Assembly: GCA_030737835.1 (NCBI GenBank)
Contig: CM060854.1
Span: 15,887,213-15,951,212, forward strand
Length of the DNA: 64,000 bases
Origin: Acorus gramineus
Lineage: Eukaryota > Streptophyta > Magnoliopsida > Acorales > Acoraceae
Direction: 5' to 3'
The translations under genes and the position numbers were made by a program. Under the pieces are notes generated by a model that was not told the origin of the DNA, did no database searches, and worked only from the letters and a program-made list of their open reading frames with translations. This document shows, one piece after another, positions 801 through 41,300 of the stretch (its first letter is position 1; each line of letters begins with the position of its first letter).

Positions 801-1063
801 TGTTATATATGTGTCACTTTTAGCCTGCTGGTAACCGTTGGAGCATTCTGGCAGTTTTCTGTTTTTTTTCGATTTTCGATCGGAACCGCTAATTTTTGGA
901 CTGTTAGCTATCGTTCTGAGTTAGAGGACTCCGATTGGAAATCTAACTGCATATTTGGTGTCCTGGTGCCATTTTAGGCCTCTCACGAAAATTTCATCGA
1001 ATTCCGGTAACGTTTCCAAAATTTCACAGTTCCGGGGCGTATCCGGGTTTTTAAGTCACTTGA

Positions 1064-1071
1064 TATATATA
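1064..1071 (+). promoter_or_regulatory. Probable LTR TATA box
   Basis: TATATATA in the context TTGATATATATAGTGAG, at the same relative place as TATATAA 6644-6650 in LTR 3 and, in reverse, at 10141 (LTR 2), about 37919 (LTR C) and 57685 (LTR F). It is followed by a CT-rich leader. Confidence 0.5.
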
Positions 1072-1197
1072 GTGAGATCTAAAATTAGATGGGCACTATT
1101 CATCATCCCTACCAAATTGCTTCCTCTCTCTCCTCTCTCTTTTTCTCCCATTTGAAGCCCTTAGACCCCTCAAACCCAAAAACCTAAAGCATAGGAA

Positions 1198-1222
1198 GTG
1201 TAGATCGGGTCCCGATCTACAC
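1198..1222. promoter_or_regulatory. 25-bp perfect palindrome in giant LTR 1
   Basis: Arms GTGTAGATCGGG and CCCGATCTACAC flank a single central base. It lies about 130 bp downstream of the LTR TATA box, so it would fold as a hairpin in the leader RNA. The same palindrome is intact at 6778-6802, 9990-10014, 37768-37792 and 57536-57560. Confidence 0.8.
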
Positions 1223-1589
1223 CCCGGTGCTTTCAAATCCGAATTCCGGCGAGTTTTGCCCCTCCGTCCCCCCTCTCTTCTTCCCTGATTTGAACCATTT
1301 CGGAGGTGGGAGTAGATCCGGGCGTTGGAAGCCTTTTGGGAGAGGTTTCGGTGCGCGGAGAGCAACCGGACTTCCCTTCCTCCCCTTGGTAAGGTCTTTT
1401 TCTTCTCTTTTTATGCTTAGATGTATGTTAGGAGAGTGGAAATGAGGTTGGGTGGTGGTCGGCGGCGGTGGGTGGCTGTCGAAGGGCTGTGGGGTGGTGG
1501 TCGGAGGCCATTGGTGGCCGGAGGTGGGTGGTAGAGGAGCTCGGGCATGTGGGCTGGTAGTCCCGGGCAGCAGGCAGCACAGGCAGGCG

Positions 1590-2440
1590 CAGCTGGCTAG
1601 CAGTGGCGGGGCGCGTGCGCGCGTGCGCGCGGACGTGCGCGTGGGCGTGAGCTCGGGTTGGCGCTGGGGGTGCTGAGTGCTGGGCGTGCTGGGCGCGCAG
1701 GGAAGACTAGCTCGGGTAGGCTGGGAGTAGGTGCACCAGTTTGCCGGGCGCGCGAGCGCGTGCCCGCGCGGGCGTGCGCTCGGGGGGTGCAGGGGGAGGC
1801 GTGCGGAGTAGGATGGCTGCGGGTTGTGCGAGCAGGGCAGGCCAGCTGGGCAGGCCATGCTCGGGCAGCTGGCAGGGGGCGCTCGGGCATCAGGCGGGCA
1901 GTGCCCAGGCGTGCAGGCGAACGGTGCTCGGGCCACTCGGCGACGCGCGCAGGCAGGCAGCGCGGGCAGGCTGGCAGGCGCGCTGGGCGCGTGCTTGCAG
2001 GCGCGCTGGGCACGTGTTGCGCGGGCGTGCGCGTGGACGCTGGGTGAGGGTCCCGGGTGCTGGGCGAGGGTGCTGAGCGCTGGGCGCTGGGCACTGCAGA
2101 GGAGCATGCGCGCGGGGCGCTGGGCAGAGGCTGGTGGTGCGCGCGGAATGCGCACGGGGAGGAGCTGGTGGTGCGCGCGGGGTACGCCCGGGGCGAGGCG
2201 CTGGGCGCGCGGGGCGTGCGGTGTGCTCGCGGGTCAGTGCGGAGCGTGCGGGGTGCGCGCGGGCTGTTGCGGCGGGGCGCAGTGGGCGCGCGGCGCACCG
2301 GGTGGCTCGGCTGCGGGTCCAGGCGTACGGGCAGGGGCCCGGCGGTGCGCCTGGGTGCGCGGGCTGAGGCGCGGCGGCGCATCCGGGGCGGGTGGCCGTG
2401 CGGGTGGTTGCCGTGGGTTCGGGAGTGAGTCGGAGTGCTC
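1590..2440. repeat. GC-rich low-complexity stretch of giant LTR 1
   Basis: About 850 bases of very high GC and CpG, made of imperfect GCGCGCGTGCG/GGGCGC words without a fixed period. It lies between the donor-like and acceptor-like motifs of LTR 1. Open frames exist on both strands in several phases and translate to Ala/Arg/Pro- or Gly-rich low-complexity peptides. These are not treated as genes. Confidence 0.75.
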
Positions 2441-3559
2441 GGGCTAACGTGCGTACGGGCCGTATGTACGTTTGCCCGAGTGTTGGGTTCTTTTGGGTAC
2501 TTTGTGACTATTTTGATGTAATTATGTATTTAACTCACCGTATAAATGTCTGTCTTGCAGATCTTGACCGGCGGTCGCGCGACGACCCAGATAACCGGTG
2601 AGTGGGACAATCCAACCCAGTAGAGAGGCGTTATACGCATTTGGGCGTATACCGACCTCTCCTGGGGCTCCATGGATTGATATTAACCGTTGTAATGTAT
2701 ATTTCATGCGAGCATGATTTAAATGTAGAATGCATGTTACCCTAGACTTTGTATGTTAGGGACTTGCACCCTTAGGATATGTGTATGAGCCATGCACCAT
2801 GTCCCCTGTTCTCATGCTAGGAAGCCTTGGCCTATGCATGTGTCCTACTAGTTTATTTATTAAATTAAATGCTAGTGTATGTTAAATTGCATGCCTTAGA
2901 TAATATTATAGGGAGGGGCCTTGCGAGGACAGCGGTGAGACCCGGGTTAGGGTACTCCGTGTTCCTTGTTTGGTTGTCGGGATGTCCTGTATCGGGACCT
3001 CATGCTGCCCTCCCAAGGTTCTCGTCCCAATAATATTACATCTCTAGTTGATAATTAAGGATTTACCCATGGTATGATTATTAGCATATTAGTGAATTAT
3101 ATAGGGGAGGGGCCTTGCGAGGACAGCGGTGAGACCTGGGTTAGGGTACTCCGTGTTCCTTGTTTGGTTGTCGGGGTGTCCTATATCGGGAACTCACGCT
3201 GCCCTCCCGAGTTTCTTTCCCCCAATGATATTCCACCCTTGCTAATTATTGTATATGCTCCCCGCATCTTGGTTATGCGCCCTGGAGGAATTCTGAGGAA
3301 TTCATGTCATTAGAATTGTAGAGATGTGTAGTCGGCGGATCCGAGTGGATCATATGCGTATGGATAGGCTGTTCTGTCCCCTTCGTTGGATCCGGTAGAG
3401 ACTGCCCCAGCGTTAGAAAGGTCGGCCCTTCCAAGGGTTCCCATCAGTAGGCGCCTCCTGATTTGGTTTCGGACTGGGCCGAAGTTGTGGGTGAAAGCCA
3501 AGCGGCCTACGGAGTGGAGGAGAGACTATCGGTGGACCAAGGGTGACCAACAGCCTAGT

Positions 3560-3740
3560 CAGTCCCAAAATCCTATGTCACCCGTGGTAGGGTGAGGGTG
3601 AGGGTGTAGTGGGTTAGCGATGAGCGACCCACTGGATTGTGGTTGGATGATTATTAGTCCCAATAGCCTATGTCACCCATTGATGGGTGAGGGTGAGGGT
3701 GTGGTGGTTCGGCGATGTACGAACCACTGGATTATGTTGT
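3560..3740 (+). repeat. G-rich modules with G-quadruplex motif, LTR 1
   Basis: There are two modules of about 100 bp, each with the core GGGTGAGGGTGAGGGTG. In the first (3590-3613) four GGG runs are spaced by 3, 3 and 6 bases, which meets the standard G-quadruplex pattern on the sense strand. Equivalent modules occur in every giant LTR of the TGTTATATATG type. Confidence 0.7.
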
Positions 3741-6700
3741 TATGCCACTTAGAGGATGGATAAATAATTGAATTGTGGTCAATATTGTCTGTGATGCATG
3801 GGTTGTGCTGTTCACTGAACGTGTGGCTCACCCCTCGCATATGTTTTCCCTAGTTGCCACTGAGCCTGAGCTGGAGCCGGAGCAGCAGTTGGAGCTTTCC
3901 GAGGGATTCCTTCAGTAGCGGAGCAGCGCCACGTTCCGCGAGTGCCAGAGGTTATCAGCATCCCTTCTTGGCTGTATGTATTTTATTTCCGTGCTTGGCA
4001 CGCGTTTGTATATATTCAGTTGTATTGGTGTATATTGGCTCTCACAGGACAGATGATTGAGTATCGAGTCTGTAGTATGTTTATTTACAGATTCAGTTTT
4101 AGCTTCCGCATTTGGTGTATATATCATGTCAGCCTCTTTGTTGTCTGAGTGTCATTCTGGTTGTTTGTGTATGATATATTTGTCACGCCCCAGGGCGGCC
4201 GTCCCCGGGACGCGGCAGGTGTATATATCATATCAGAAGCCTACACATGAGGTCAAATATATATACTCTAAAACCACAGATAAAAATGACAACACAGATC
4301 AAACAAGGCTGACATAATATATACACAATATAGCGGAAGCTAAAAATTGAGTCTGTAACTCAAAACATATTACAGACTCGATACACAATCGTCCGTCATG
4401 TGAGAGCCAATATACATAGAAACAACTGAATATATACAGAAGCGTGCCAAGCACGGAAATAAAATACATACAGTCAAGAAAAGGGATGCTGATAGCCTCT
4501 GGCACTCGCGGAACGTGGCGCTGCTCCGCTACTGAAGGAATCCCTCGGAAAGCTCCAACTGCTGCTCCGGCTCTAGCTCAGGCTCAGTGACCACTGGGGA
4601 AAAACATATGCGAGGGGTGAGCCACACGCTCAGTGAACAGCACAACCCATGCATCACAGACAATATTTACCATAATTCCATTATTTATCCATCCTCTAAT
4701 ACATAACAACATAATCTAGTGGTTCGTACTTCGCCGAACCACCACACCCTCACCCTCACCCATCAATGGGTGACATAGGCTATTGGGACTGATAATCACC
4801 CATAGACAAATCCAGCGGGTCGCTCATCGCCAACCCACTACACCCTCACCCTCACCCTACCACGGGTGACATAGGATTTTGGGACTGACTAGGCTGTTGG
4901 TCACCCTTAGTCCACCGATAGTCTCTCCTCCACTCCGTAGGCCGCTTGGTTTTCACCCATAACTTCAGCCCAGTCCGAAACCAAATCAGGAGGCGCCTAC
5001 TGATGGGAACCCTTGGAAGGGACGACCTTTCTAATGCTGGGGCAGCCTCTACCGGATCCAACGAGGGGGACAGAACAGCCTATCCATACGCATATGATCC
5101 ACTCGGATCCGCCGACAACACATCTCTACAACTCAAATGTCATGAACTCTTCAGAGTTCCTCCAGGGCGCATAACCACGATGCGGGAAAATAAGTATAAT
5201 AAAAGCAAGATTGTAATATCATTGGGGGAAAGAACTCGGGAGGGCGGCGTGAGTTCCCGTTATAGGATACCCCGACAACCAAACAAGGAACACGGAGTAC
5301 CCTAACCCGGGTCTCACCGCTGTCCTCGCAAGGCCCCTCCCCTATAATATTCACTAACAGGCTAATAACCATACCAATCATACAACATTATTTATAATAT
5401 TATTGGGACTAGAAACCTTGGGAGGGCAGCATGAGGTCCCGATACAGGACATCCCGACAACCAAACAAGGAACACGGAGTACCCTAACACGGGTCTCAAT
5501 GTTGACCTCGCAAGGCTCCTCCCTATAATATTATCTAAGGCATGCGATTTAACATACACTAGCATTTAATTTAATAAATAAACTAGTAGGGCGCATGCAT
5601 AGGCCGAGGTTTCCTAGCATGAAAACAGGGGGACATGGTGCATGGCTCTCACACCTATCCTATGGGTGCAAGTCCCTAACATAAAAGCCTAGGGTAGCAT
5701 GCATTCTGTATTTAAAATCATGCTCACATGCAATACATATTACTACAGGTTAATATAATCCATGGTGCCCCAGGAGAGGTCGGTATACGCCCAAGTGCGT
5801 ATGACCCCTCTCTACTGGGTTGGATTGTCCCACTCACCGGTATCTGGGTCGTCGCGCGACCGTCCGTCCAGATCTGCAAGACAGACATTCAATATGGTGA
5901 GAACAAAACATAAATACTCTAAATACCCAAACATACAAAACCCACAACTAAACACCTAACACTCGGGCAAACGTGCATACGACCCGCACGCACGCTAGCC
6001 CGAGCACTCCGGCTACCACCCGCACGGCCACCCGCCCTCGGATGCGCCGCCGCGCCTCAGCCCGCGCGCCCCGACGCACTGCCGCACACACGCGCACGCT
6101 CGCGCGCGCCCGCGCGCATCGCGCGTCCAGCCCAGCATGCCCCCGCGCGCACTGCACGCACGGCCCAGCACGCGCGCGCACTGGTCCCCAGCACCGCGCC
6201 CAGGCGCATGCCCAGGCGCCCTGCCCAGCACCCAGGCACAGTGCCCAGGCGCCCTGCCCGCGCGCGCGCACGCCCGCTCGCGCCCGCGCACACCCCCGCT
6301 CGCGCCAGCACCCGCGCGCACGCCTGCGACCACTCCGCGCGCACCCGCGCACCCGCGCGCGACTGCGCCCGCCAGCGCTGTTATACTTGTGTCACTTTTA
6401 GCCTGCAAGTAACCGTTAGAGCGTCCTGGCAGTTTTAAAAATTTTTAGGGTTTTCGATCGGAACCGCTTATTTTTGGACTGTTAGCTATCGTCCTGAGCT
6501 AGAGGACTCCGATTGGAAATCTAACTGCATATTTGGTGTCCTGGTGCCATTTTAAGCCTCTCACGAAAATTTCATCGAATTCCGGCATCGTTTCCAAAAA
6601 TTTCACAGTTCCGGGGCGTATCCGGGTATTTTAAGTCGCTCACTATATAAGTGGGATCTAAAATTTCCGAGGTACTATTCATCATCCCCGACCTTGGACT

Positions 6701-6777
6701 CTCTCTCTCCTCTCCTCCGTTTTTCTTTCGTTTGAGCCCCCTACACCCCTCAAAATCAAAAACCTAAAGCAAGGGAA

Positions 6778-6802
6778 GTGTAGATCGGGTCCCGATCTAC
6801 AC
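6778..6802. promoter_or_regulatory. 25-bp perfect palindrome in giant LTR 3
   Basis: Both 12-base arms are intact with central T, as in LTR 1. It is about 130 bp downstream of the TATAA box at 6644. Confidence 0.8.
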
Positions 6803-7415
6803 TCCGGTGTCTTCAAAACCCGATTCCGACGACTCTAGCCACTCCGTCCCCCTCTCTTTGTCCTCTGATTCGGGCCATTTCGAGGGCCGTGGTAGATCGG
6901 GGCGTAAGAGAGCCTTTGGGAAAGGTTTCGGCGCGCGGAGAGCACCCGGTCACCCCTTCCTCCCCCTCGGTAAGCTTCTTTTCCTCTTTTTTCTTGCTTA
7001 GATGATTGCTAGGGGAGGGTTTTTGTGTTTGGGGGTGGTCGGCGGCAGTGGGGGTCGTCGGAGGGTGGTTGGAGGTGGTCGGAGGTGGTCGGAGGTCGTG
7101 GGAGGGGCGGTGGTGGCGCTCGAGCAGTGGCTGGGCTGTCCCGGGCAGCAGGCAGCAGCGGCAGCGGCCCAGGCAGCGCGCGGGCTGGGCGCGTGCGGGG
7201 ATGCGCGCGTGCGCGCGCGGGCGTGCGTGCGCGCGGCGTGCGCGCGGGCGTGCGCGGGTCTGGCGCGAGGTGCTGGTCGTGCTGGGCGCGCGGGACGGGC
7301 TGGCAGTGCTGGCAGCGAGCGCAGGGGGCCGGTTGGGCGTGCGCGCGTGCGTGCGCGCGGGCGTGCGCTCGGAGGTGCGTGCGAGGTGTGCGCGAGGCGC
7401 AGCGGGGCAGGCGAG

Positions 7416-7625
7416 GTGCGTACGAGGTGCGCGCGAGGTGCGGCAAGGTGGCGGAGGTGCGTGCGAGGTGCGCGCGAGGTGCGGCAAGGTGGCGGAGGTG
7501 CGTGCGAGGTGCGCGCGAGGTGCGGCAAGGTGGCGGAGGTGCGTGCGAGGTGCGCGCGAGGTGCGGCAAGGTGGTGGAGGTGCGTGCGAGGTGCGCGCGA
7601 GGTGCGGCAAGGTGGCGGAGGTGCG
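7416..7625. repeat. 41-bp GC-rich tandem array, about five copies
   Basis: A unit beginning GTGCGTGCGAGGTGCGCGCG recurs at about 7416, 7457, 7498, 7539 and 7580 with almost no variation. It lies in the intron-like part of giant LTR 3. Because 41 is not a multiple of three, successive copies change frame, which helps keep several frames open at once. Confidence 0.85.
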
Positions 7626-9989
7626 CGCGGGGTGCGCGCGGGGCGAGGCGCTGCGCGCGGGGGCGTGCGGGGTGCCCCGGGAAGCGCGGCGGTGCACCCG
7701 GGCGGTCGGGTGGCCGTGCGGGTGGTTGCCGGAGTGCTCGGGCTAACGTGCGTGCGGGGCGCGTGCACGTTTGCCCGAGTGTTAGGTGTTTGTTGTGGGT
7801 TTTGGGGTATTTATTTGTGTATTTAATAATATCTGTGGATTTATACTTACCAAGTAATACCCTGTCTTGCAGATCTCGACGGACGGTCGCGCGACGACCC
7901 GGATAGGGGTGAGTGGGACAATCCAACCCAGTAGAGAGGCGTTGTACGCACTTGGGGCGTATACCGACCTCTCCTGGGGCGCCATGGATAAATATTACCT
8001 GCAATAATATGTAATCCATGCTTGTGTGATTAATATGTGTAGAATGCCTGTTTCCCTAGTCTTTGCTTGTTAGGGACTTGCACCCCTAGGATATGCGTAT
8101 GAGCCATGCAGCATGTCCCCTGTTTTCATGCTAGGAAACCCCGGCCTATGCATGCATCCTACTAGTTTATTCATTAAATTAAATGCTGGTATCTGTTAGA
8201 TCGCATGCCTTAGGATAATATTATAGGGAGGAGCCTTGCGAGGTCAACGCTGAGACCCGTGTTAGGGTACTCCGTGTTCCTTGTTTGGTTGTCGGGATGT
8301 CCTGTATCGGGACCTCGGGCTGCCCTCCCAAGGTTCTAGTCCCAATAATATTATATGTAATGATTGTATGATTGGTATAATTATTAGCATAGTTGGTGGA
8401 TATTATAGGGGAGGGGCCTTGCAAGGACAGCGGTGAGACCCGGGTTAGGGTACTCCGTGTTCCTTGTTTGGTTGTCGGGGTATCCTATAACGGGAACTCA
8501 CGCCGCCCTTCCGAGTTTCTTTCCCCCAATGATATTCCAGCCTTGCTGATTTTTGTACATGTTCCCGCATCTTGATGATGCACCTGGTTGAATTCAGAGG
8601 AATTCATGACATTTGAGTTGTGATGATATGTAGTCGGCGGATCCGAGTGGATCATATGCGTATGGATAGGCTGTTCTGTTCCCTGCGTTGGATCCGGTAG
8701 AGGCTACCCCCAACGTTAGACAGGGCCTTCCTGACAGAGGGCTCCCATTAGTAGGCACCTCCTGATTTGGTTTCGGACTGTGCTGAATGTGGGAGTAGAC
8801 CAGGCAGCCTACGGAGTTGAGGGAGAGACTATCGGTGGACCAAGGGTGACCAACAGCCTAGTCAGTCCCAAAATCCTATGTCCCCATTGATGGGTGAGGG
8901 TGAGGGTGTAGTGGGTTGGCGATGAGCGACCTACTGGATTTGTGAATAGATGTTTACCAGTCCCAATAGCCTATGTCACCCATGGATGGGTGAGGGTGAG
9001 GGTGTGGTGGTTCGGCGAAGTACGAACCACTGGATTATGTTGTTATGTATTGATGGTTGGATAAATAATGGGAATTGTGGTAATTATTGTCTGTGATGCA
9101 TGGGTTGTGCTGTTCACTGAGCGTGCGGCTCACCCCTCGCATATGTTTTTCCCCAGTTGCCACTGAGCCTGAGCTGGAGCCGGAGCAGTAGTTGGAGCTT
9201 TCCGAGGGATTTCTTCAGTAGCGGAGCAGCGCCACGTTCCGCGAGTGCCAGAGGTTATCAGCATCCCTTCTTGACTGTATGTATTTGATTTCCGTGCTTG
9301 GCAAGTGTTTGTATATGTTCAGTTTTATTTGTGTATATTGGCTCTCACAGGACAGATGATTGAGTATCGAGTCTGTAGAATGTTTATTCACAGATTCAGT
9401 CTTTTGCTTCCGCATTTGGTGTATATATCATGTTAGCCCCTTTTGTTGCATGTGTGTCATTCTAGTTGTCTGTGTATGATATATATTATTGACCTCCTGT
9501 GTAGGCTTCTGATATGATACATACACTTGCCGCGTCCCTGGGTTGGCCGCCCTGGGGCGTGACAAGCGCCCAGCTCCACCAGCGCGCACGCCCGCGCGCA
9601 CGTCCGCGCGCGCGCCCCTGCCAGCTGCTGCGCCTGCTGCCTGTGCTGCTGCCACCAGCCACCCTGCCCGAGCACCTCAACCACCACCCACCGGCCACCC
9701 CATGGCCTCCGACAACCCCCCACAGCCCTCCGACGGCCACCCACCGCCGACGACCGCCTCCCAACCTCAAATCCACCCTCCTAACATACATCTACACAAG
9801 AAAAGAGGGGGAAAGAGGCTTACCAAGGGGAGGAAGGGAAGTCCGGTTGCTCTCCGCGCACCGAAACCTCTCCCAAAGGGCTTCCAACGCCCGGATCTAC
9901 TCCCACCTCCGAAATGAGCCAAAACAGAGGAGAAGAGAGGGCGGACGGAGGGGCAAAACTCACCGGAATTCGGATTTGAAAGCACCGGA

Positions 9990-10014
9990 GTGTAGATCGG
10001 GACCCGATCTACAC
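9990..10014. promoter_or_regulatory. 25-bp perfect palindrome in giant LTR 2
   Basis: Both arms are intact with central A (reverse orientation). It lies about 130 bp from the TATA box at 10141-10148. Confidence 0.8.
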
Positions 10015-12959: not shown

Positions 12960-15900
12960 TGTCACGCCCCGGGCGTCCCCGAGACGCGGCAAGTGTATAT
13001 ATAATATCAGAATCTACACAGGAGGTCAATAATATCACACACAAGCAGCCAAAATGACACACAGACAACAAAAGCAAGGCTGACAGATATATACACCAAA
13101 TGCGGATAACTAAGACTGAATCTGTAATCAAAACACACTACAGACTCCATACATAATCACATGTCCTGTGAGAGCCAATATACATACAAAGACATCCAAA
13201 TACAACAACAAACGTGTGCCCAAGCACGGAAAATAATACATACTGGTACAAGGGATGCTGATAGTCTCTGCAACTCACGGGACGTGGCGCTACTCCGCTA
13301 CTGATGAAGTCCCTCGGGGAGCTCCTCCTCTGGATCCGACTCAGATGACACTGTAGAAAAATATTGTGCGAGGGGTGAGCCACACGCTCAGTGAACGGCA
13401 CAACCCATGCATCACAGACAATATTGACCACAACCAGATAATCCTTATCATCCACAATACCATTACCAAAGCCACAAATAACCACAATTCCTCAACCTAC
13501 TGGGTCGCTAACGCCAACCCACTACACCCTCACCCTCACCCCCAATGGGTGACCAAGGATATTGGGACTAACTGCACAGAACCAGCGGGTCGCTTCAGCC
13601 AACCCGCTACACCCTCACCCTCACCCTTCAATGGGTGACATAGGATATTGGGACTGACAACACCAATCCAGCAGGTCGCTATCGCCAACCTACTACACCC
13701 TCACCCTCACCCCCTCAACAGGAGTGACATAGGATATTGGGACTGACGATCATCCATAGACAAATCCAGCGGGTCGCTCATCGCCAACCCACTACACCCT
13801 CACCCTCACCCTACAACGGGTGACATAGGCTCTTGGGACTGACTAGGCTGTTGGTTACCCTTGGTCCACCGATAGTCTCTCCTCACTCCGTGGTTGTTTG
13901 GCCACTCCCATGTTCAGCACAGTCCTTCACCAAATCAGGAGGCGCCTACTAGTGGGAGCCCCTGCACGGGACAACCTGTCTAACGCCGAGGTAGTCTCTA
14001 ACAGGATCCGACGAAGGGAACAGAACAGCCTATCCATCGCATATGATCCACTCGGATCCGCAGACAACACATCATAACAACACTAATGTTCTGAATTCCT
14101 CAGAACCCACCAGGGCGCATAACTACGATGCGGGGAACATGCATAAGGTTATAACAAGGTGGAATATTGTTGGGGAAAGAAACTCGGGAGGGCAGCGTGA
14201 GTTCCCGTTATAGGACACCCCGACAACCAAACAAGGAACACGGTGTACCCTAACCCGGGTCTCACCGCTGTCCTCGCAAGGCCCCTCCCCTATAATATTC
14301 ACTATAACATGCAATTTAACATTTACTAGCATTTAATTTAATAAATAAACTAGTAGGGCACATGCATCGGTCGGGCTTCCTAACAAGGAACCAGGGGACA
14401 TGCTGCATGGCTCATATACATATCCTAAGGGTGCAAGTCCCTAACATGCACAGTCTAGGGAAGCATGCATTCTACAATTAAATCATGCTCGCATGATATA
14501 CAATTTACAACATGCCAATATTTATCCATGGTGCCCCAGGAGAGGTCGGTATACGCCCAAGTGCGTATAACACCTCTCTACTGGGTTGGATTGTCCCACT
14601 CACCGAAGTCTGGGTCGTCGCGCGACCGTCCGGCTAGATCTGCAAGAGAGACATTCAATATGGTGAGTACAAATACATAAATACACAAAAATACTCTAAA
14701 ATACCCAACACTCGGACAAACGTACATACGACCCGTACGCACGCGTATCCGAGCATCCCGACTCATTCCCGAGCCCACCGGGCAGCCGCACGCACGACCA
14801 CCCGCCTCGGGCGCACCGCCGAGCCCCGGCCCGCGCGCCAAGGCGCCCGGCCGAACCCAGCCCGCACGCCCACACCGCCTGCTCGCCCTGCGCGCACAGC
14901 GCCCCCCGCACGCGCACGCACGGATGCGCACGCACGCACACACACCGGCACCATCGGCGCACTGCCGCGCGCCTACCTGCGCGCCCCGACGCACTGCCGC
15001 ACGCACGCGCACGCTCGCGCGTGCCCGCGCGCACCGCGCATCCAGCCCAGCGCGCCCCCACGCGCACTGCACGCACGCCCCAGCACGCACGCGCACTGGT
15101 CCCCAGCACCGCGCGCACTGGTCCCCAGCACCGCGCCCAGACGCATGCCCAGGCGCCCTGCCCAGCACCCAGGCGAAGTGCCCAGGTGCCCTGCCGCGCG
15201 CGCGCACGCTCGCGCGCACGCTCGCGCGCGCCCGCGCGCACCCGCGCAGACCCCCGCTGGCACGCCCACTCGCGCCAGCATCCGCACGCACCCGCGCACC
15301 CGCTCCGCGCGCACCCGCGCACTCGCGCGTACGCGCCCGCGCGCGCCTGCGCGCCCGACTGCGCCTGCCTGGGCGCGCGCCCGCGCGCAAACGACGCCCA
15401 GACCGCGCCCAAGCCCTCTTAACCTCCTTTTAACCCATTCTAACCCCTCCCACACACCCCAACCTACCCAGCCACCATGCATGACCTTCCCAACACCCTT
15501 AAGCCAAAAAAATTAAGAAAAGGAGGGGAGGAGCTCACCTTGGAGGGGGAACAAAGGGGGATGTTCGGGGGCCCTTCGCGCACCGAAACGCCGCCACCGA
15601 AACCACCACCACCACCACCTCTCCTCAGCCTCCTCTTCAGCCAAAATCAGGGGGGGGGGGAAAGCATGGAAAGGGAGAGCTTGAGAGAGAGGAAAACAAA
15701 CAACCATCACACATGCACCAAGAATCCACCACCACTTCCTCCTCCACCTCCTCCTTCTCTTTGGGGCATTTAAACAAACACAAGGGGGGCTTGAAGAGGT
15801 GAAAGAGAGAGCCTCAGATGAAGGTCGACGTGCACTTGGGAGGGAGAGAGAGATAGATGAGATATTTATCATATAACTTAAGGGGAAATGACATACGCAC

Positions 15901-19300: not shown

Positions 19301-19961
19301 GAGAGCGATTCCACGCTTGCGACACCATCCATTAATCCATTTCCGGGTTAGCCCCTACCTGACACACTCCCACGATCAGTACCCCTCCGACTGCATCGGC
19401 GGTACCTACGGATGAGAGCCTCCTGCCAGGACGGCTACAACCCGGCCTCTTTAACTCGAACAACCACACTCATACTCGCGCTGCAGCCTCTAGCTCCACC
19501 TCCCTCACTAGGGGATCCTGAACTCTCACCGCTGGAAACACCACGGGGACTGGGGGTACTTCGGGTACCACAGACGGATCTGCTACCAAGGGGACCTGTG
19601 GAACTGCCTCACGGGCCGCCCTCAGCTCCCAGATCTCCCGCGCTTGCTCTACCAACGCTCTGGTCTGCGCCTCCAGTGCCTTGATCCGAGTCTCCACCGA
19701 ATCCGCTATCCGAGCGAACGCACGTTCCCGTGCGGGAGGCTCCTGCGCCGATCCTGGCCTCACAGCCGTGGACTCTCCAATAGCATCCTCGCCTCTAGTA
19801 GGTCCGAAAGCTCCAAAGGTCGAGAGGGACCATGTCCGCGCCGTCCTCCACGAGGAGACATATCAGCAATCCTAAGAAAACCAGACTCTAGGATCAGAAT
19901 ACCATATCAAAATCCTAGGACTCATCTCTACGAAAGAAGACCATTGGCTCTGACAGGACCA

Positions 19962-19980: not shown

Positions 19981-22900
19981 TGTCACGCCCCGGGCGTCCC
20001 CGAGACGCGGCAAGTGTATATATAATATCAGAATCTACTCAGGAGGTCAATAATATCATACACAAGCAGCCAAATGACACACAGACAACAAAAGCAGGCT
20101 GACATGATATATACACCAAATGCGGATAACTAAAGACTGAATCTGTAATCAAAACACACTACAGACTCCATACATAATCACATGTCCTGTGAGAGCCAAT
20201 ATACATACAATCCAAATACAACCAAACGCGTGCCCAAGCACGGAAAATAATACATACTGGTACAAGGGATGCTGATAGTCTCTGCAACTCGCGGGACGTG
20301 GCGCTACTCCGCTACTGATGAAGTCCCTCGGGGAGCTCCTCCTCTGGATCCGACTCAGATGACACTGTAGAGAAAATATTATGCGAGGGGTGAGCCACAC
20401 GCTCAGTGAACGGCACAACCCATGCATCACAGACAATATTGACCACAACCAGATAATCCTTAACATCCACAATACCATTACCAAAGCCACAAATAACACA
20501 ATTCCTCAACCTAGTGGGTCGCTAACGCCAACCCACTACACCCTCACCCTCACCCTCAATGGGTGACAAGGATATTGGGACTAACTGCACAAACCAGCGG
20601 GTCGCTTCGCCAACCCGCTACACCCTCACCCTCACCCTTCAATGGGTGACATAGGATATTGGGACTACTACACCAATCCAGCAGGTCGCTTCGCCAACCT
20701 ACTACACCCTCACCCTCACCCTCAACGGGTGACATAGGATATTGGGACTGACGATCATCCATAACAAAACCAGCGGGTCGCTCATCGCCAACCCACCACA
20801 CCCTCACCCTCACCCTCAACGGGTGACATAGGCTCTTGGGACTGACTAGGCTGTTGGTCACCCTTGGTCCACCGATAGTCTCTCCTCACTCCGCGGTTGT
20901 TTGGCCACTCCCATGTTCAGCACAGTCCTTCCACCAAATCAGGAGGCGCCTACTACTGGGAGCCCCTGCACGGGACAACCTGTCTAACGCTGAGGTAGTC
21001 TCTACACGGATCCAACGAAGGGAACAGAACAGCCTATCCATCGCATATGATCCACTCGGATCCGCAGACAACACATCATAACAACACTAATGTTCTGAAT
21101 TCCTCAGAACCCACCAGGGCGCATAACTACGATGCGGGGAACATGCATAAGGTTATAACAAGGTGGAATATTGTTGGGGAAAGAAACTCGGGAGGGCAGC
21201 GTGAGTTCCCGTTATAGGACACCCCGACAACCAAACAAGGAACACGGTGTACCCTAACCCGGGTCTCACCGCTGTCCTCGCAAGGCCCCTCCCCTATAAT
21301 ATTCACTATAACATGCAATTTAACAAATACTAGCATTTAATTTAATAAATAAACTAGTAGGGCACATGCATCGGTCGGGCTTCCTAACATGGAACCAGGG
21401 GACATGCTGCATGGCTCATACACATATCCTAAGGGTGCAAGTCCCTAACATGCAAAGTCTAGGGTAACATGCATTCTACAATTTAATCATGCTCGCATGA
21501 TATACACATTACAATATGTCAATATTCATCCATGGTGCCCCAGGAGAGGTCGGTATACGCCCAAGTGCGTATAACACCTCTCTACTGGGTTGGATTGTCC
21601 CACTCACCGGTATCTGGGTCGTCGCGCGACCGTCCGTCTAGATCTGCAAGACAGACATTCAATATGGTGAGTACAAATACATAAATACACAGAAATACTC
21701 TAAAATACCCAACACTCGGACAAACGTACATACGACCCGTACGCACGCGTATCCGAGCATCCCGACTCATTCCCGAACCCACCGGGCAGCCGCACGCACG
21801 GCCACCCGCCTCGGGCGCACCGCCGAGCCCCGGCCCGCGCGCCAAGGCGCCCGGCCGAACCCAGCCCGCACGCCCGCACCGCCTGCTCGCCCTGCGCGCA
21901 CAGCGCCCCCCGCACGCGCACGCACGGATGCGCACGCACGCACACAGACCGGCACCATCGGCGCACTGCCGCGCGCCTGCCCGCTCGCCCCGACGCACTG
22001 CCGCACGCACGCGCACGCTCGCGCGTGCCCGCGTGCACCGCGCATCCAGCCCAGCGCGCCCCCGCGCGCACTGCACGCACGCCCCAGCACGCACGCGCAC
22101 TGGTCCCCAGCACCGCGCCCAGACGCATGCCCAGGCGCCCTGCCCAGCACCCAGGCGAAGTGCCCAGGTGCCCTGCCGCGCGCGTGCACGCTCGCGCGCA
22201 CGCCCGCGCGCACCCGCGCAGACCCCCGCTGGCACGCCCGCTCGCGCCAGCATCCGCGCGCACCCGCGCACCCGCTCCGCGCGCACCCGTGCACTCGCGC
22301 GCACGCGTCCGCGCGCGCCTGCGCGCCCGACTGCGCCTGCCTGGGCGCGCGCCCGCGCGCGCACGCGCGCAAACGACGCCCAGACCGCGCCCAAGCCCTC
22401 TTAACCTCCTTTTAACCCATTCTAACCCCTCCCACACACCCCAACCTACCCAGCCACCATGCATGACCTTCCCAACACCCTTAAGCCAAAAAAAATTAAG
22501 AAAAGGAGGGGAGGAGCTCACCTTGGAGGGGGAACAAAGGGGGATGTTCGGGGGCCCTTCGCGCACCGAAACGCCGCCACCGAAACCACCACCACCACCA
22601 CCTCTCCTCAGCCTCCTCTTCAGCCAAAATCAGGGGGGGGGGGGGGAAAGCATGGAAAGGGAGAGCTTGAGAGAGAGGAAAACAAACAACCATCACACAT
22701 GCACCAAGAATCCACCACCACTTCCTCCTCCACCTCCTCCTTCTCTTTGGGGCATTTAAACAAACACAAGGGGGGGCTTGAAGAGGTGAAAGAGAGAGCC
22801 TCAGATGAAGGTCGACGTGCACTTGGGAGGGAGAGAGAGATAGATGAGATATTTATCATATAACTTAAGGGGAAATGACATACGCACCCTTTCACTCGAA

Positions 22901-25173: not shown

Positions 25174-28100
25174 TGTCACGCCCCGGGCGTCCCCGGGACG
25201 CGGCAAGTGTATATAGGATATCAGTCCAAATAGGAGTTCAATAACATACTCACACAACAGCTAAAATGACAACACAGATAAAAGTAGGGCTGACATAATA
25301 TATACACAAATAGCGGATGCTAAAAGATTGAGTCTGTAATCTAAAAACATACTACAGACTCGATACATAATCAAATGTCCTGTGAGAGCCAATATATACA
25401 AAGACATCCAAACAATATACAAACGCGTGCCCAAGCACGGAATATAACACATACAATCAAAAGGGATGCTGATAGCCTCTGATACTCGCGGGACGTGGCG
25501 CTACTCCGCTACTGATGAAGTCCCTCGGGGAGCTCCTCCTCTAGATCCGACTCAGATAGCACTGGAGAAAATAATTATGCGAGGGGTGAGCCACACGCTC
25601 AGTGAACAGCATAACCCATGAATCACAGTTTATATTAACCACAACCAGACATTATTAACCACAACTTGGCAACAACTATACAATCCAGTGGGTCGCTATC
25701 GCCGACCCACCACACCCTCACCCTCACCCCTCAATATGGTGACATAGGATATTGGGACTTACAGCACAAAACCAGTAGGTCGCTATCGCCAACCCACTAC
25801 ACCCTCACCCTCACCCCTCAATAGGTGACATAGGATATTGGGACTTACAATCCAGTGGGTCGCTACATCGACGACCCACCGCACCCTCACCCTCACCCCT
25901 CAATATGGTGACATAGGATATTGGGACAGACTAGGCTGATGGTCACCCTTGGTCCACCGATAGTCTCTCCCCACTCCGTAGGCCGTTTGGCCACCCCCAC
26001 ATTCAGCACAGTCCGTCCCAAATCAGAAGGTGCCTACTGATGGGAGCCCCTGCACGGGACAGCCTTTCCAACGCCGGGGTAGTCTCTACACGAATCCAAC
26101 GAAGGGAACAGAACAGCCTATCCATCGCATATGATCCACTCGGATCCGCAGACAACACATCATAACAACTCTAATGCCATGAATTCTTCAGAATTCCTCC
26201 AGGGCGTATAACCAGGATGCGGGGAACATATATAATAATAATCATTAAAAAGAGTTATAATTATAATTATTAACAAGAGTTATAATATTATCGGGAAAAG
26301 AAGCCTTGGGAGGGTACCATCAGGTCCCGATATAGGACATCCCGACAACCAAACAAGGAACACGGAGTACCCTAGCCCGGGTCTCAATGTTGACCTCGCA
26401 AGGCCCCTCCCTATAATATTATATAAGACATGCTAGCATACTAAAGTTTGCATTTAAAATTAATAAGTTAAACTAATAGGACACATGCACAGGTCGAGGC
26501 TTCCTAATCATGAGAACAGGTGACAGGATGCATGGCTCTTACACATGCCCTAAGGGTGCAAGTCCCTAACATACAAAGTCTAGGGTAGCATGCATACTAC
26601 ATTTTTATCATGCTCGCATGGATTACACATTACAACAAGTTAATATAAATCCATGGTGCCCCAGGGGAGGACGGTACACGCCCAAGTGCATATAACGCCT
26701 CCCTACTGGGTTGGATTGTCCCACTCACCAGTAGCCGGGTCGTCGCGCGACCGTCCATCAAGATCTGCAAAATAGGGTACTCAAATCGATGAGTAAAATA
26801 CACAATTAAACCCAAAAATATATTAAAATACACAATACTCGGACAAGCGTACATACGGCCTGTACGCACGCGAGCCCGAGCATTCCGACTCACTCCCGAA
26901 CCCCCGAGTAGCCGCACGCACGACCACCCGCCCCGGGCGCACAGCCGAGCCCCGGCCCACGCCCCCAGACGCCCTGCCGAGCCCAGCCCGCACGCCCGGA
27001 CACCCTGCCGAGACCTCCCGAGTGCACCGCGCGCTCCCTGCGCCCCAGCGCAGCAACCCGCGCGCACACCCGCACGCCCTGCGCCCCAACGCCTCTCCCC
27101 GCGCGCACCCTGCGAGCATCACCCGCTCGCACCAGCCCCGGGTGCACCCGCGCGCACTGCGCCCCAGCGCAGCGCCCCGCACGCGCACTTGCGCGCACTG
27201 CGCCCCAGCGCAGCGCCCGCACACCTGCCCGCACACCTGCCCACTGGCACCGACCGCTCGCCCTGCGCGCACTACGCCCCCTGCGCAGCACCCGCACACC
27301 ACCTGCTCGCCACGCGCCCAGCATCCGCTCGCTCGCACGCCCGATAGCACACGCCCAGCGCCCAGCACCCGCTCACTCGCACGCCCGACAGCACACGCCC
27401 AGTGCCCAGCACCCGCTTGCTCGCACGCCCGACAGCACACGCCCCCAGCGTGCCTGCCAGCATGCCCTCAGCGCGCCTGCCAGCCCGCCCGCGCACTGCC
27501 TGCCTGTCCGAGCACTGCCTGCCTGCGCGCTGCCTGCCTGCCCGAGCATTGCCTTCCTGCGCTGCCCTGCCTGCCTGCCAGACCACCCGGGACAGCCCAC
27601 CACCCTACCCGAGCCACTCTACCACCCCTCACCGGCCACCAATGGCCTCTAACAGCCTCCGACCGCCACCAACGGCCACCCACAGCCACCCCAACTCAAA
27701 AACATCCTCCTAACAAGCATCTAAACAAGAAAGGAAAGAAAGAAGGCTTACCCAAAGAAGGAGAGGAAGGAAGGGGAAGATCGGTTGCTCTCCGCGCACC
27801 GAAACACTTCTCCAAAGACCCCCACCACCAAGACCTCCCTCAGCCCCAAAACCAGCTGAAATCAGAGGAGAAAAGAGGGTGAGAGAGGGGGCAATACACA
27901 CCGGAACTCGAATCCGAGACTACCGGTGGATAGATCGGGATGAGATCTAACCTTTCTCTTCTTTGAGCTTTTGATTTTAACCCCTCTAGCTAGGTCAAAA
28001 TCAAGAAAAAGAGAGAGGGGGAGAGAGAAAATCAAGTGGGGAAGATGATGAATAGTGGGGGAGAAAAGATCTTGCTCACTTAAATAAGTTAATCCCCACT

Positions 28101-35020: not shown

Positions 35021-38000
35021 TGTCACGCCCCAGGGCGGCCAACCCAGGGACGCGGCAAGTGTATATATAATATCAGAATCTACACAGGAGGTCAATAATA
35101 TATATCATACACAGACAACTAGAATGACACACATGCAACAAAAGGGGATGACATGATATATACACCAAATGCGGAAGCAAAAGACTGAATCTGTGAATAA
35201 ACATTCTACAGACTCGATACTCAATCATCTGTCCTGTGAGAGCCAATATACACAAATACAACTGAACATATACAAACACGTGCCAAGCACGGAAATCAAA
35301 TACATACAGTCAAGAAGGGATGCTGATAACCTCTGGCACTCGTGGAACGTGGCGCTGCTCCGCTACTGAAGAAATCCCTCGGAAAGCTCCAACTGCTGCT
35401 CCGGCTCTAGCTCAGGCTCAGTGACCACTGGGGAAAAACATGTGCGAGGGGTGAGCCACACGCTCAGTGAACAGCACAACCCATGCATCACAGACAATAT
35501 TTACCTCAATTCCATTATTTATCTAGTCTCCAAGACATAACAACATAATCCAGTGGTTCGTACTTCGCCGAACCACCACACCCTCACCCTCACCCATCAA
35601 TGGGTGACATAGGCTATTGGGACTGATAATCATCTATTCACAAATCCAGTAGGTCGCTCATCGCCAACCCACTACACCCTCACCCTCACCCTCAACGGGT
35701 GACATAGGATTTTGGGACTGACTAGGCTGTTGGTCACCCTTGGTCCACCGATAGTCTCTCCCTCCACTCCGTAGGCCGCTTGGTCTCCACCCACAACTTC
35801 AGCACAGTCCGAAACAAAATCAGGAGGTGCCTAATGATGTGGGTCCTCCGAAGGACGGCCTTTCTAGCGCTGGGGGTAGCCTCTACCGGATCCAACGCAG
35901 GGAACAGAACAGCCTATCCATACGCATATGATCCACTCGGATCCGCCGACAATACATCTCTACCACTCAAATGTCATGAACTCTTCAGAGTTCCTCCAGG
36001 GCGCATATCCAAGATGCGGGGAATAAGTACAATCAAAAGTAATGTTGGAATATCATTGGGGGAAAGAAACTCGGGAGGGCGGCGTGAGTTCCCGATACAG
36101 GATACCCCGACAACCAAACAAGGAACACGGAGTACCCTAACACGGGTCTCACCGCTGTCCTCGCAAGGCCCCTCCCCTATAATATTCACTACACATGCTA
36201 ATAATCATACCAAACATACAACATTACTTATAATATTATTGGGACTAGAAACCTTGGGAGAGCAGCATGAGGTCCCGATACAGGACATCCCGACAACCAA
36301 ACAAGGAACACGGAGTACCCTAACACGGGTCTCACCGCTGTCCTCGCAAGGCTCCTCCCGATAATATTACCTAAGGCATGCGATTTAACATACACTAGCA
36401 TTTAATTGAATAAATAAACTAGTAGGACGCATACACAGGTCGAGGTTTCCTAACAAGAACAGGAGGCATGGTGCATGGCTCTTACACCTATCCTATGGGT
36501 GCAAGTCCCTAACATAAAAGCCTAGGGTAGCATGCATTTCTACATTTTCATCATGCTCACATGCAATACATATTATTACAGGTTAATATAATCCACGGTG
36601 CCCCAGGAGAGGTCGGTATACGCCCAAGTGCGTATAACACCTCTCTACTGGGTTGGATTGTCCCACTCACCAGTATCTGGGTCGTCGCGCGACCGCCCGT
36701 CGAGATCTGCAAGACAGGGTATTACTTGGTAAGTATAAATCCACAAATATTATTAAATACACAAATAAATACCCAAAACCCACAACAAACACCTAACACT
36801 CGGGCAAACGTGCACACGACCCGCACGCACGCTAGCCCGAGCACTCCGGCAACTACCCGCACGGCCGGCAACCACCCGCACGGCCACCCGACCGCCCGGG
36901 TGCACCGCCGCGCCTCCGCCCGAGCACCCCGCGCTCCCCCGCGCGCAGCGCCTCGCCTCGCGCACACCCCGCGCGCACCTCCGCCACCTCGCCGCGCCCC
37001 GCGCGCACCACCACGGCCTCGCCGCGCCCTCCGCGCGCACCCTGCACTCGGCCACCACCTCGCGCCCACACCACCGCTGCCTCAGCCACCACCTCGCACC
37101 CGCGCGACCTGCTCCACGCGCACCAGCCCGCCCAGCACCAGCCGCCCAGCACGACCAGCACGCGCCCCGCACGCCCGCGCGCACGCCCATGCGCACGCAC
37201 GCGCGCACGCCCGCGCGCGCCCGGCCTGCTGCGCTGCTGTGCTGCTTGAGACCTCCAGCCCGAGCACGCCAGCACTGCCAGCCCGTCCCGCACGCCCAGC
37301 ACGACCAGCCCCTCGCACCAGACCCGCGCACACCCGCGCGCACGCCGCGCGCACGCACACCCGCGCACGCACGCGCGCACGCCCGCGCGCGCCCAGCATG
37401 TGCGCTGCCTGGGCCGCTGCCGCTGCTGCCTGCGCCCGAGGACATCTCCCACCATTCCCGAGCACCCAAACCACCACCTACCGACCTCCGACCACCTCCA
37501 CCGCCCTCCGACGGCCACCCACAGCCGCCAACCTCCTCCCATACACAGATCCACACTCCTAGCATACATCTATGCAAGAAAAGTGAAGAAAAGGACCTTA
37601 CCGAGGGGAGGAAGCGAAGTCCGGGCGCTCTCCACGCGCCGAAACCTTTCTCAAAGGCTCTCTTTCACCCCGATCTACCACGGCCCTCAAAATGGCCCGA
37701 ATCAGAGGACAAAGAGAGGGGGACGGAGTGGCTAGAGTCGTCGGAATCGGGTTTTGAAGACACCGGAGTGTAGATCGGGACCCGATCTACACTTCTCGTG
37801 CTTTAGGTTTTTAGTTTTGAGGGGTGTAGGGGGCTCAAACGGAAGAAAAACGGAGAAGGGGAGAGAGAGAGCTCAAGGTCGGGGATGATGAACAGCAACT
37901 CGGGTTTTAGATCCCACTTATTTATAGTGCGCGACTTAAAAACCCGGATACGCCCCGGAACTGTGAAATTTTTGCAAACGATGCCGGAATTCGATGAAAT

Positions 38001-38333: not shown

Positions 38334-41300
38334 TGTTATGCATGTGTCATTTGGAGCCATTTCAGTAAGCCTTGTCACATCTGGGTCATTCAGAGCCTTT
38401 TTATTTTTTGATCGAAGTCGCTAAAATTTTGGCTTTACTATGATTGAAAAGCTAACTGCATATTATGGGTCCTGGTACTGTTTCGTACTACCCATAAAAA
38501 TTTCATCGAATTCCGGTAACGTTTTTAAAAAATTGTAGTTCTGAACCGTATCCGGGTTTTGAGAGTTCCTGGTTGGTCGAATAGTGTGAGATATTTTGAG
38601 GATGTGGTGACCTCTGGTAGCCTTACCCCCACCTTGCTTAGTGATGAGGAAACCATTGGTCTTTTGGTATGTGAGTGGGTGAGCCTAGCCCTAACCTCAC
38701 CACCCCCTTATGGTCACCCTAGACACTATTTGGGCATGAAAATGATATTTTTGCCCTCTCTCTCTCTCCCCCTCTCTCCCATTTCGTGGAACAATTTCTC
38801 TCCCTCTCTTGGTCTCTTTTTTTTCTCCTCTTTGTGTGTGAAGAAGGAGGAGGAAGAACCAATTGAAGGAAAAGATGAAGAAGCACAAGAAACAGTGAGA
38901 AAGGGTGAGGATGTGTTGTTGTTGTTGTTTCTCTTCTCTCTATCCCCTTCTCACGCCCCTTTGCACCCCTGTTTTCTGCCATGAAGGGTTTGAGGAGATT
39001 CTGATGAGGTGGTGGTAGTGGTGGTGGTTGAGGTGGTCATGGGTTTGTCGAGAACCCCGCATCTCCCCATTTCCCTCCCCCTGTTTTGGTAAGGCAACAC
39101 TCTGTATTTTAAAGATCTCAGTGAATCTAGTATTTAGAGGAACATTTTTAGGATTATGTCTTCATATAATATGATCCGCTATGTGTCTAGGTGTTATATA
39201 TGAAAATTGGGGTCATTATGATATCTGTGGTGTAAGTTAGAACCTGTTTTGCATGGCCTGTCTAGATTCGCGTAGGAATTGACCTGCTTCTGGAAATAAT
39301 TTATTTCGGGCTTGTAGAGGCAAAATTAGGTTCTAATGTCTTCATGGATTATGATCCCAGCATATCAGAGAATGTGCACGTTTTATTTCATAATTTTTGG
39401 AAGTGTATTGGGTGCTGTGGAGATCAATTAGTAGGGCTGGTTGCAGCAGGTTTGGCAGTTTTGTTTGGTTGAGTGTCAAGGAGTTGTTTGCATGTGTCTT
39501 GTGTGATAATATGGAAGTATCAGGGGTTAGGGTCTTCATGAAGTAGGCTTATATGTGTGATAGGAGGTTCCATAATTTAATTATGGATCATTGGTTGTGT
39601 TTTGCAGATCTCGTAGACCGGACGCGCGGCGATCCGGGTATCAGTGAGTGGTTTGATCCAACCCTTCGAGAAGCGTTGGATGCACATAGTCGTGCGTCGT
39701 GCATCCATTGGGCACCATGACTATACTACTTAATTAGATAAGTAGTATGGTCATGTCTAACTCATAATATGTTAGATATCTACATGCTAGACTTATATTG
39801 CATGTATTGTATCCATGTATGAATGACTGTATCGCATGCGCCCCTCTAGTATGGGCATGTATTATGTAATGTGTATGGATGTATAGAATATGGCATGCCT
39901 TAGGTAGTATTGTAATACTATTCCCACCATATTAATTGGGATATCCAGCACGATTAAGTCTGGGTTAATAACAGGCACATGCCTAATATTCCCTTGCGAT
40001 AAGACTCGAGGACGTGGTGTAGTTTTGCGCCCATGATAGTGGGGCAAAGCTATGACCAACTTCAAGAGATGATGAGCTCTCTCTCGCCCTCTCCCTTTGT
40101 ACGAACTGAGTAAGTAGATGCGATTTCCTACTCGACTCAGGTTCGTTTGGAATATTGGCATGCACCTGTTAGTGCGCGAGATCGCGCTTGACCTTCCCAT
40201 TTAAGTTGGTGATATCCAACGCAAGCTTAAGTTATGCCTTGTGTGCCTATGTGATTAATGGCCATGTATGCAGGTTGTATGATTTATTGTTTATGATGTA
40301 AATCCATGTTAGGGAGTATCCCTATAATTATTTGATAGGTTATCGTGCATGTAGTTCATGTTCATAACTAAGATATAATTCTCCTGGATATATATATGCG
40401 TATGTTAAAACTGATTAGGCCTATCTAAAATAGGCGTGGGTATGACCCGTTGTCGGGTTGTACCTTATTAGTTAGAGCGCTAGCGATGTAATCGCCCCCG
40501 TGCATCCGAGCGATACACTCGTTTGGAATTCAGGAGAATTCATTATCTTATCGGTTTTGTTAAGCCGGTAGTTGTGGCACTAAGCTAGGCCTACCCGTGC
40601 TAGGTGTGTATATGAACCGCCCTGTTGGGTTATGTGCCATGGGATTATTTCTGCGTGAGAGCAGAGGCAACCCCCTTGTGTCCGAGCGACGCAACCATGT
40701 GGGAGTACAATAGTATTCGATATCATCGATATGTGATTATCGAGAGTAGTTGTTTTTCCATTGGGTTTGCTTTGCGAACATGGAGTGTTTCCTCCCAATG
40801 TCGTCCGTGTTGAAGCGGCCCGGGTTGTAGCTGTCCTGACAGAGGGCCCCCACTTGTAGGTGCTATCGATGCATGTGACAAGATGTACTAATCGTGGGGG
40901 TATACCAGGTAGAGGCTACCCGGGAGAGGGCTAACGAATGATATTGCGAGCGTGGAATCGTTCTCCCTTGCATTGGATCAGTGTAGGAACTCCCTGGCGT
41001 TGGAAAAGCTTTCCTGACAAAGGGCTCCCATCCGTAGGTACTACCGATGCGTTCGGGAGCGTACTGATCGTGGGAGTATACCAGGTAGAGACTACCCGGG
41101 GAAAGGGCTACCGGTGGACCAAGGGTGTAGAGGAGTCTAATCTCTCCAAAAGTCCTATGTCACCTCTAAAGGGTGAGGGTGAGGATGAGGTGAAGACACG
41201 TCACCGTGAGGCCTATTCGTTGTTCGTCCGTTCCTATAGTTGTTGGGTCCGGTTGCGTATCGATGTTCAAAGACATCGTTGGATAGTTATCTTGATGTAG

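Follow-up and report, generated by a model that had tools for sequence, protein, structure and literature searches.

It is an old question how retroelements share one transcript between translation and copying. Plant long terminal repeat (LTR) elements are generally intronless, with Ogre and EVADE as notable exceptions, according to the passage on this point in a 2025 review (PMC12786077). In the cited accounts of BARE1 (PMC3735527) and EVADE (PMC12786077), a Gag RNA is split off by splicing (short-Gag splicing), and for Ogre, a plant Ty3/gypsy element, the sections dealing with it describe an intron that is spliced from part of the transcripts (PMC6317226, PMC12786077). Here we describe the giant LTRs of a Ty3/gypsy family in a stretch of 64,000 nucleotides from Acorus gramineus (GenBank assembly GCA_030737835.1, contig CM060854.1, positions 15,887,213 to 15,951,212; "the window" in what follows). 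Judging from the sequence, it is very likely that the RNA of this family has a leader that is split by spliceosomal introns and spliced before gag is translated.

Introns 1 and 2 of the proposed leader are situated wholly inside the LTR and intron 3 ends just 5' of the gag ATG. In the cited accounts, the intron of BARE1 and EVADE is in the coding region, whereas the Acorus introns would be in the LTR and the leader, 5' of gag. Their position upstream of gag also differs from that described for Ogre, and none of the three lies within gag-pol, where an intron of the Ogre type or of the BARE/EVADE type would be found. Donors in the LTR and acceptors around the start of gag, as in our family, appear in the relevant section on Diaspora as a prediction only (PMC1142308); the same section, from 2005, calls introns upstream of gag unreported. 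In the open-licence literature we found, among the matches listed, no report of such introns later than 2005 and no report of an intron inside the LTR of a plant element. The rice element Retrosat2 likewise has an LTR of more than 3 kb, and the LTR end GGGCGTGACA of Retrosat2 and RIRE8 is found in our family as well (PMC3485330); Retrosat-2 is assigned to the Tekay/Del group in the part of PMC6317226 that covers it. Unlike the Acorus family, Retrosat2 and RIRE8 have an ORF0, and the main text of the paper that describes them does not contain the word "intron" (PMC3485330).

In human L1, as told in the passages cited here, RNA is likewise spliced in the 5' leader and reverse-transcribed into spliced copies (spliced integrated retrotransposed elements, SpIREs; PMC5860796), which are termed evolutionary dead ends in that paper. 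L1 is a non-LTR element, whereas the Acorus intron sits in an LTR and is missing from the two LTRs of a single insertion. L1 SpIREs are the nearest parallel for the spliced copies and BARE1 the nearest for separate RNA pools.

Intron 1 and the copies that lack it

The best-supported part of our reading is that intron 1 would be removed exactly at its GT..AG borders, since base-exact intronless copies have repeatedly been integrated as LTR elements. In window coordinates, the focal LTR has the following features.

801..4180, plus strand: focal LTR; it starts TGTTATATATGTGTCAC, and its 3' end is truncated at the start (4181) of a reverse LTR of the same family
1064..1071, plus strand: TATA-like box, from the sequence
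about 1095, plus strand: probable transcription start (CACTATTCATCATC)
1095..1388, plus strand: leader exon 1, without ATG in this copy
1389..2560, plus strand: intron 1, GTAAGG...CTTGCAG, with a GC-rich variable core and A/T-richer ends; 13 ATG
2561..2597, plus strand: exon 2 (micro-exon), 37 nt in the focal copy
2598..3853, plus strand: putative intron 2, GTGAGTGG...TTTTCCCTAG; 41 ATG
3854..3973, plus strand: exon 3; 0 ATG
3974..4180, plus strand: 5' part of putative intron 3, donor GTATGTAT, interrupted by the LTR truncation

We scanned the 399-Mb assembly, in which the window is part of contig C8, for exon 1 joined to exon 2. The strict pattern CCCCYYG/ATCTNGACNGRCGGTCGC (here and below, a slash in a motif marks an exon border) has 14 matches, and the reversed-pattern control has 0. 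A second scan, for CTCCCC followed by GACGGACGGTCGCG at a spacing of 0-30, gave 23 sites (control 0): 13 are exact junctions, 2 read TTGG/ATCT and come from a subfamily with GG/GTAAG donors, and 8 retain TGTCTTGCAG, so that they are not junctions. Imprecise joins were found 0 times at these spacings, other deletion end points being outside the scan. With up to 3 mismatches there were 28 junction sites, which contain the strict 14 (control 0). In total we obtained 30 distinct sites with exact GT..AG borders, some of which are the two LTRs of one element. In all 30, exon 1 runs directly into exon 2. The 14 sites that were read later have the GGAGAG region of exon 1 in 14 cases and the LTR start in 13; among the first 16, donor 2 is retained in 15 (L038 reads ATGAGTGG), and acceptor 2 is within the available stretch in 15. 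Intron-bearing copies are far more frequent, with 3911 exact matches to CCTCCCCYYGGTAAG (1935+1976; reversed pattern 1) against 30 intronless sites, which therefore make up less than one in a hundred.

Two full elements, on contigs C2 and C78, lack intron 1 in both LTRs. They are flanked by 5-bp target duplications (ACCAT on both sides on C2, TTATG on both sides on C78), and the identity between the two LTRs is 96.9% and 98.4%, respectively. Matching duplications are also found at three single intronless LTRs (TGCAA, GTCTA and CGATA), and L054 has no clean one. Since both LTRs of an element are intronless and target duplications are present, we conclude that spliced RNA was reverse-transcribed; the LTR pairs and the duplications point to passage through RNA, and in these copies intron 1 is removed to the base.

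Some intronless LTRs are clustered 5-9 kb apart, namely L069, L077 and L078 on contig C54 (729-745 kb) and L067 and L073 on contig C59 (1.32-1.33 Mb); these may be LTR pairs or have arisen by local duplication. A second junction on C65, 7.5 kb 5' of the first, probably belongs to the other LTR of the same element.

We placed 16 of the 30 intronless sites on two trees, the 14 read later being left out. The first, with 55 rows (16 intronless), was calculated on exon 2 plus the bases that follow it and requires 12 changes between intron-bearing and intronless labels, of which at least 10 fall on well-supported branches, and the shuffled mean is 14.2; for this tree L028, whose acceptor reads CAA, was set by hand to intron-bearing. 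The second, with 39 rows (16 intronless), covers exon 1 together with everything 5' of it in the LTR and requires 9 label changes, at least 7 of them well supported. We see on both trees that intronless copies are scattered among intron-bearing relatives. Because the two trees differ in part, as recombination between LTRs would lead one to expect, we claim several independent losses of intron 1 but no exact number; the minimum suggested by the sequences themselves is three, the number of exon 1 end types among the intronless copies (TTG/, TCG/ and TTGG/).

A sequence-only reading of the window had reported a donor-like and an acceptor-like border, 519 to 1172 bases apart, inside every giant LTR, with a second donor 36-37 bases further on. 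On re-reading, all eight of its intervals were found at the given positions and with lengths in this range. Each starts GTAAG or GTGAG (two read CCAAG/GTGAGC), ends TTGCAG and goes on with ATCT, and GTGAGTG follows 36 or 37 bases past the acceptor in each. "Every giant LTR" was too strong a statement, as truncated copies in the window miss a border and 30 genome sites have no intron 1. For example, the donor half is absent from the reverse LTR that begins at 4181, and in the fragment 9569-10411 the donor is present and the acceptor out of reach. Genome-wide, the acceptor 14-mer TGTCTTGCAGATCT has 4757+4750 matches (reversed pattern 0). Besides the focal copy, the window holds the following.

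6970..7872, plus strand: intron 1 of the second forward LTR (6379-9564)
9157..9276, plus strand: exon 3 of the same LTR (6379-9564)
36707..37601, minus strand: intron 1 of the reverse LTR 35021-38191
56353..57368, minus strand: intron 1 of the reverse LTR 54877-57956
26765..27751, minus strand: intron 1 of the reverse solo LTR 25174-28515
14640..15538, minus strand: intron 1 of the probable 3' LTR of a reverse element, paired by position
21644..22521, minus strand: intron 1 of the 5' LTR of a reverse element; primer site 19963-19974
19872..19882, minus strand: acceptor 3 (GGTTTTCTTAG), just 5' of the gag ATG and 3' of the primer site
39089..39607, plus strand: intron 1 of a divergent related LTR (38334-41957), in which exon 2 is likewise 36 nt

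Conservation was analysed in an anchored sample of 37 main-family copies, 21 with intron 1 and 16 without. Eight LTR starts were dropped (six without an exon 1 anchor, and two without exon 2 in reach that were kept for donor 1 only) and duplicate loci were skipped; in L039 acceptor 2 is out of reach, and the second plus-strand LTR of the pair of the 14640/21644 type, the start of which was unmatched, stands outside the 37. The expectation that the borders stay while the interior varies, which was to be checked on a genome-wide alignment and which we checked on this sample instead, holds at donor 1 and acceptor 1. There the border bases are conserved at 95-100%, and the median beside them is about 0.67 (donor 1, bases +20 to +60) and about 0.57 (acceptor 1, bases -60 to -20). 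It does not hold at donor 2, where the adjacent intron is equally conserved.

Donor 1 reads GT(A/G)AG in 23 of 23 copies, acceptor 1 ends in AG in 20 of 21 (the exception is L028), and donor 2 has GT in 36 of 37 (L038 has AT). Intron 1 is 602-1361 nt long in the 21 main-family copies, and exon 1, counted from the probable start, is 219-306 nt long, with 28 of 37 copies at 293-296 nt. Among the 53 copies with a readable donor 2, exon 2 is 36 nt long in 48, 37 nt in 3 and 35 nt in 2. Most of the 39 intron-bearing rows have a branch-like CTCAC, CTTAC or CTAAC 20-30 nt 5' of acceptor 1. Thus, intron 1 has the GT and AG borders, the pyrimidine-rich end and the branch-like motif of a spliceosomal GT-AG intron. 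Its mean GC is 0.44 in the first 50 bases, 0.32 in the last 60 and 0.78 in the core.

Intron 1 of the second LTR contains near-tandem repeats at window 7381-7640, with a unit like GTGCGTGCGAGGTGCGCGCGAGGTGCGGCAAGGTGGCGGAG (read by eye), and repeats of this kind are a likely source of the variation in intron 1 length. We also considered other roles for the exons. A stable hairpin in exon 2, similar to a retroviral dimer signal, was rejected because all five folds were inside the shuffle range (z -0.44 to 1.07). Exon 1 as a coding region was rejected as well: most copies have no ATG, and the open frames are short and differ among copies.

Candidate introns 2 and 3 and the distribution of ATG

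The second donor of the sequence-only reading probably pairs with an acceptor in the same LTR (window 3853). Its GTGAGTGG is followed 0.8-1.4 kb on by a pyrimidine-rich tract and AG (median 1243 nt), and this acceptor 2 is pyrimidine-rich with AG in 36 of 36 copies; an otherwise different family reads TTTCTTTTCAG at the same position. Exon 3 is 96-121 nt long and its 3' end is at GTATGT in 32 of 36 copies, at GTACGT in 2 and decayed in 2. A third intron may extend from this GTATGT in the LTR to TTTTCTTAG just 5' of the gag ATG, and would then remove the primer site. Its donor has GT in 34 of 36 copies and its acceptor AG in 13 of 13. In the 13 copies read, TGGTTTTCTTAG/G is found downstream of the primer site, 9-10 nt 5' of the gag ATG, and a divergent lineage has TTATCTTAG at the position of acceptor 3.

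Focal intron 2 contains two copies of a segment of about 145 bp (GGGAGGGGCCTTGCGAGG...), at window 2896-3040 and 3089-3235, which are about 88% alike. Further LTRs of the window have the same segment too, and internal regions carry part of it.

Scanning ribosomes require a leader that is free of ATG. We counted ATG in the same 37 copies and took single-base shuffles as the expectation. Exon 1 has 7 ATG against 121 expected (32 of 37 copies have none). For exon 2 the count is 4 where 13 would be expected, and for exon 3 it is 0 where 54.5 would be, an ATG being absent from 36 of 36 copies. The corresponding numbers are 161 against 173 for intron 1, 1269 against 770 for intron 2 and 117 against 93 for intron 3. 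The antisense CAT is frequent in exon 1 (145) and exon 3 (64), so that the shortage of ATG there is strand-specific; in the short exon 2, CAT (1) is rarer than ATG (4). Within the focal LTR, ATG is absent from the exons and occurs 13 times in intron 1 and 41 times in intron 2. In summary, the ATG contrast tracks the proposed borders of exons and introns in the main family. Selection for leader splicing, which the sequence-only reading had proposed from border conservation alone, now has the support of the exact intronless copies and of ATG being nearly confined to introns.

We propose that transcription would start about 30 nt past the TATA box and that removal of introns 1, 2 and 3 would give a short, nearly ATG-free leader (about 295+36+110 nt) ending 9-10 nt before the gag ATG. 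With the primer-binding site within intron 3, a fully spliced mRNA would be translatable and not copyable, and unspliced RNA would be copyable, yet loaded with dozens of upstream ATGs. An RNA that has lost intron 1 alone would retain the primer site and could still transpose; such copies stay rare. Use of intron 3 would in this way separate the RNA for translation from the RNA for copying, and it would explain why we see transposition of intron-1-less copies and no trace of fully spliced RNA.

The genome appears to record splicing 5' of gag, inside the LTR, in a family that numbers thousands of copies, and a primer site within a proposed intron suggests a simple rule for sorting RNA. LTR introns could also be among the causes that make some plant LTRs longer than 3 kb, and we suggest that LTR annotation should look for exons.

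Contrary evidence and alternative explanations

Several observations weigh against the leader as proposed. Donor 2 shows no contrast with its surroundings, the first 24 intron bases being nearly all as conserved as the border. The core of intron 1 is 78% GC, and GC as high as this is unusual in plant introns. The latter are described as U-rich in the relevant part of the BARE1 paper (PMC3735527). The exon side of donor 3 is weak (often CT/GTATGT) and its GT is missing in 2 of 36 copies; outside the 37 copies, acceptor 2 is lost in one LTR of L022 and the AG of acceptor 3 in L027. L018 reads ATA at the gag ATG. The copies are related, and their ATG counts are therefore not independent; moreover, exon 3 was closed at GTATGT, so that this particular ATG is excluded by construction. 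Since the proposed exon 1 of the divergent family contains ATGs, the leader argument is restricted to the main family. Copies without intron 2 were sought genome-wide with 0 sites found, and so were junctions of exon 3 or of exon 2 with gag (0 sites). Exact removal is thus seen for intron 1 and not for introns 2 and 3, the function of which is suggested by the splice signals and the ATG pattern, and the lack of loss copies can also mean that introns 2 and 3 are unspliced.

This leads to an alternative in which intron 1 alone is real (e.g. as an enhancing intron of the 5' untranslated region) and gag is translated, by re-initiation or internal entry, from an RNA that keeps introns 2 and 3. It would fit the loss copies, which are known for intron 1 alone, and a donor 2 that is not distinct from its neighbours. 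We consider it rather unlikely: in exon 3 an ATG is absent from 36 of 36 copies, against an excess over expectation in the proposed introns on either side, and a family of different sequence still has the pyrimidine-rich tract and the AG of acceptor 2. Another explanation does without splicing altogether and holds that one ancient DNA deletion happened to coincide with GT..AG and later multiplied through transposition or gene conversion. Gene conversion between LTRs is common in general, the exon 1 tails are alike in several intronless copies (L034, L035, L039, L054 and L066), and 12 label changes against a shuffled mean of 14.2 indicate some clustering. A single deletion is nevertheless very unlikely, as the three exon 1 end types each match the donor of their own relatives, and L041 and L052 belong to a clade in which the distance between LTR start and donor is greater (668-789 nt, compared with about 576-591). 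Besides, at least 7 to 10 label changes fall on well-supported branches, no imprecise deletion was seen in the scanned range, and the ATG pattern does not depend on the intronless copies alone.

Finally, the borders could be relics of a host gene promoter and leader that were captured by the LTR and conserved through recent amplification only. We regard this as very unlikely, even though the copy number is high and exon 2 looks partly codon-like. From one subfamily to another the borders of intron 1 are more durable than its interior, they are found again in the divergent family, and the exact losses suggest that the sites still worked when those copies moved; a captured origin would, in any case, be compatible with present use.

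Strand, family and neighbouring sequences

The window consists of nested LTRs. The main LTR family has the 5' end TGTTATATATGTGTCACTTTTA and the 3' end GGGGCGTGACA, and four complete-looking copies in the window are 3.1-3.3 kb long. Its reverse complement likewise starts with TG and finishes with CA, so that the strand was initially ambiguous. Genome-wide, CGTGACA followed within 8 bases by TGGTATCAGAGC has 1692+1738 sites (reversed-pattern control 0). The primer sites come after GGGGCGTGACA, i.e. downstream of it, and the strand that the sequence-only reading had taken as sense is for this reason the transcribed one; the opposite orientation, with an LTR starting TGTCACGCCCC, is ruled out on the same ground.

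Some internal regions contain gag only and are about 2.8 kb long (L018, L021 and L024), and longer ones have gag, protease, reverse transcriptase (RT), RNase H and integrase domains (L016 and L065, which share the same internal region). Pfam finds Retrotrans_gag, RVP_2 and RVT_1 in L016, and RT_RNaseH and Integrase_H2C2 in L065, with rve below its curated cut-off. The order gag-protease-RT-RNaseH-integrase is that expected of a Ty3/gypsy chromovirus of the Tekay/Del group, to which the family may belong, and so are the TGGTATCAGAGC primer site and the 5-bp target duplication. For a chromodomain after the integrase (PF00385), the last 87 residues of a 700-aa piece give E 5.8e-5 and 23.4 bits, just under the cut-off of 25.1, and the domain was unlisted at E 0.001 for the whole piece. 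The reverse solo LTR 25174-28515 has GTTAT at either flank.

The divergent family (38334-41957) retains the donor, the acceptor, the 36-nt exon 2, donor 2 and acceptor 2. Its exon 2 (window 39608-39643; L002:1511-1546) has a different sequence and the same type of borders.

In most of the listed main-family copies, exons 2 and 3 together (window 2561-2597 with 3854-3919) form one open frame up to a common TAG. Variation in exon 2 is partly at third positions, and length changes in exon 3 mostly look like multiples of three; the leader has no upstream ATG despite this shared frame. The frame is broken in L008, L016 and L017, and some other copies have early stops. In the gag-only elements (L018, L021, L024, L028, L029 and L032), the frame beyond ...MVRG is unconserved and opens with a donor-like CGAG/GTA, and the region 3' of gag has segments of about 115-235 bp in common with LTR intron 2. 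LTR exons with two roles are conceivable but unlikely: exons 1-3 of the 5' LTR would be the ATG-free leader, and exons 2-3 of the 3' LTR would, in gag-only elements, be the final exons that code for Gag, spliced from CGAG/GTA. The phase left by this donor matches the frame of exon 2. A junction of Gag with exon 2 was found at 0 genome sites (control 1), which lends no support to coding by the 3' LTR.

On the minus strand, window 1-783 and 10323-11522, both adjoining LTRs, contain Ty1/copia-type domains (SH3_retrovirus; gag_pre-integrs, rve and Pol_BBD).
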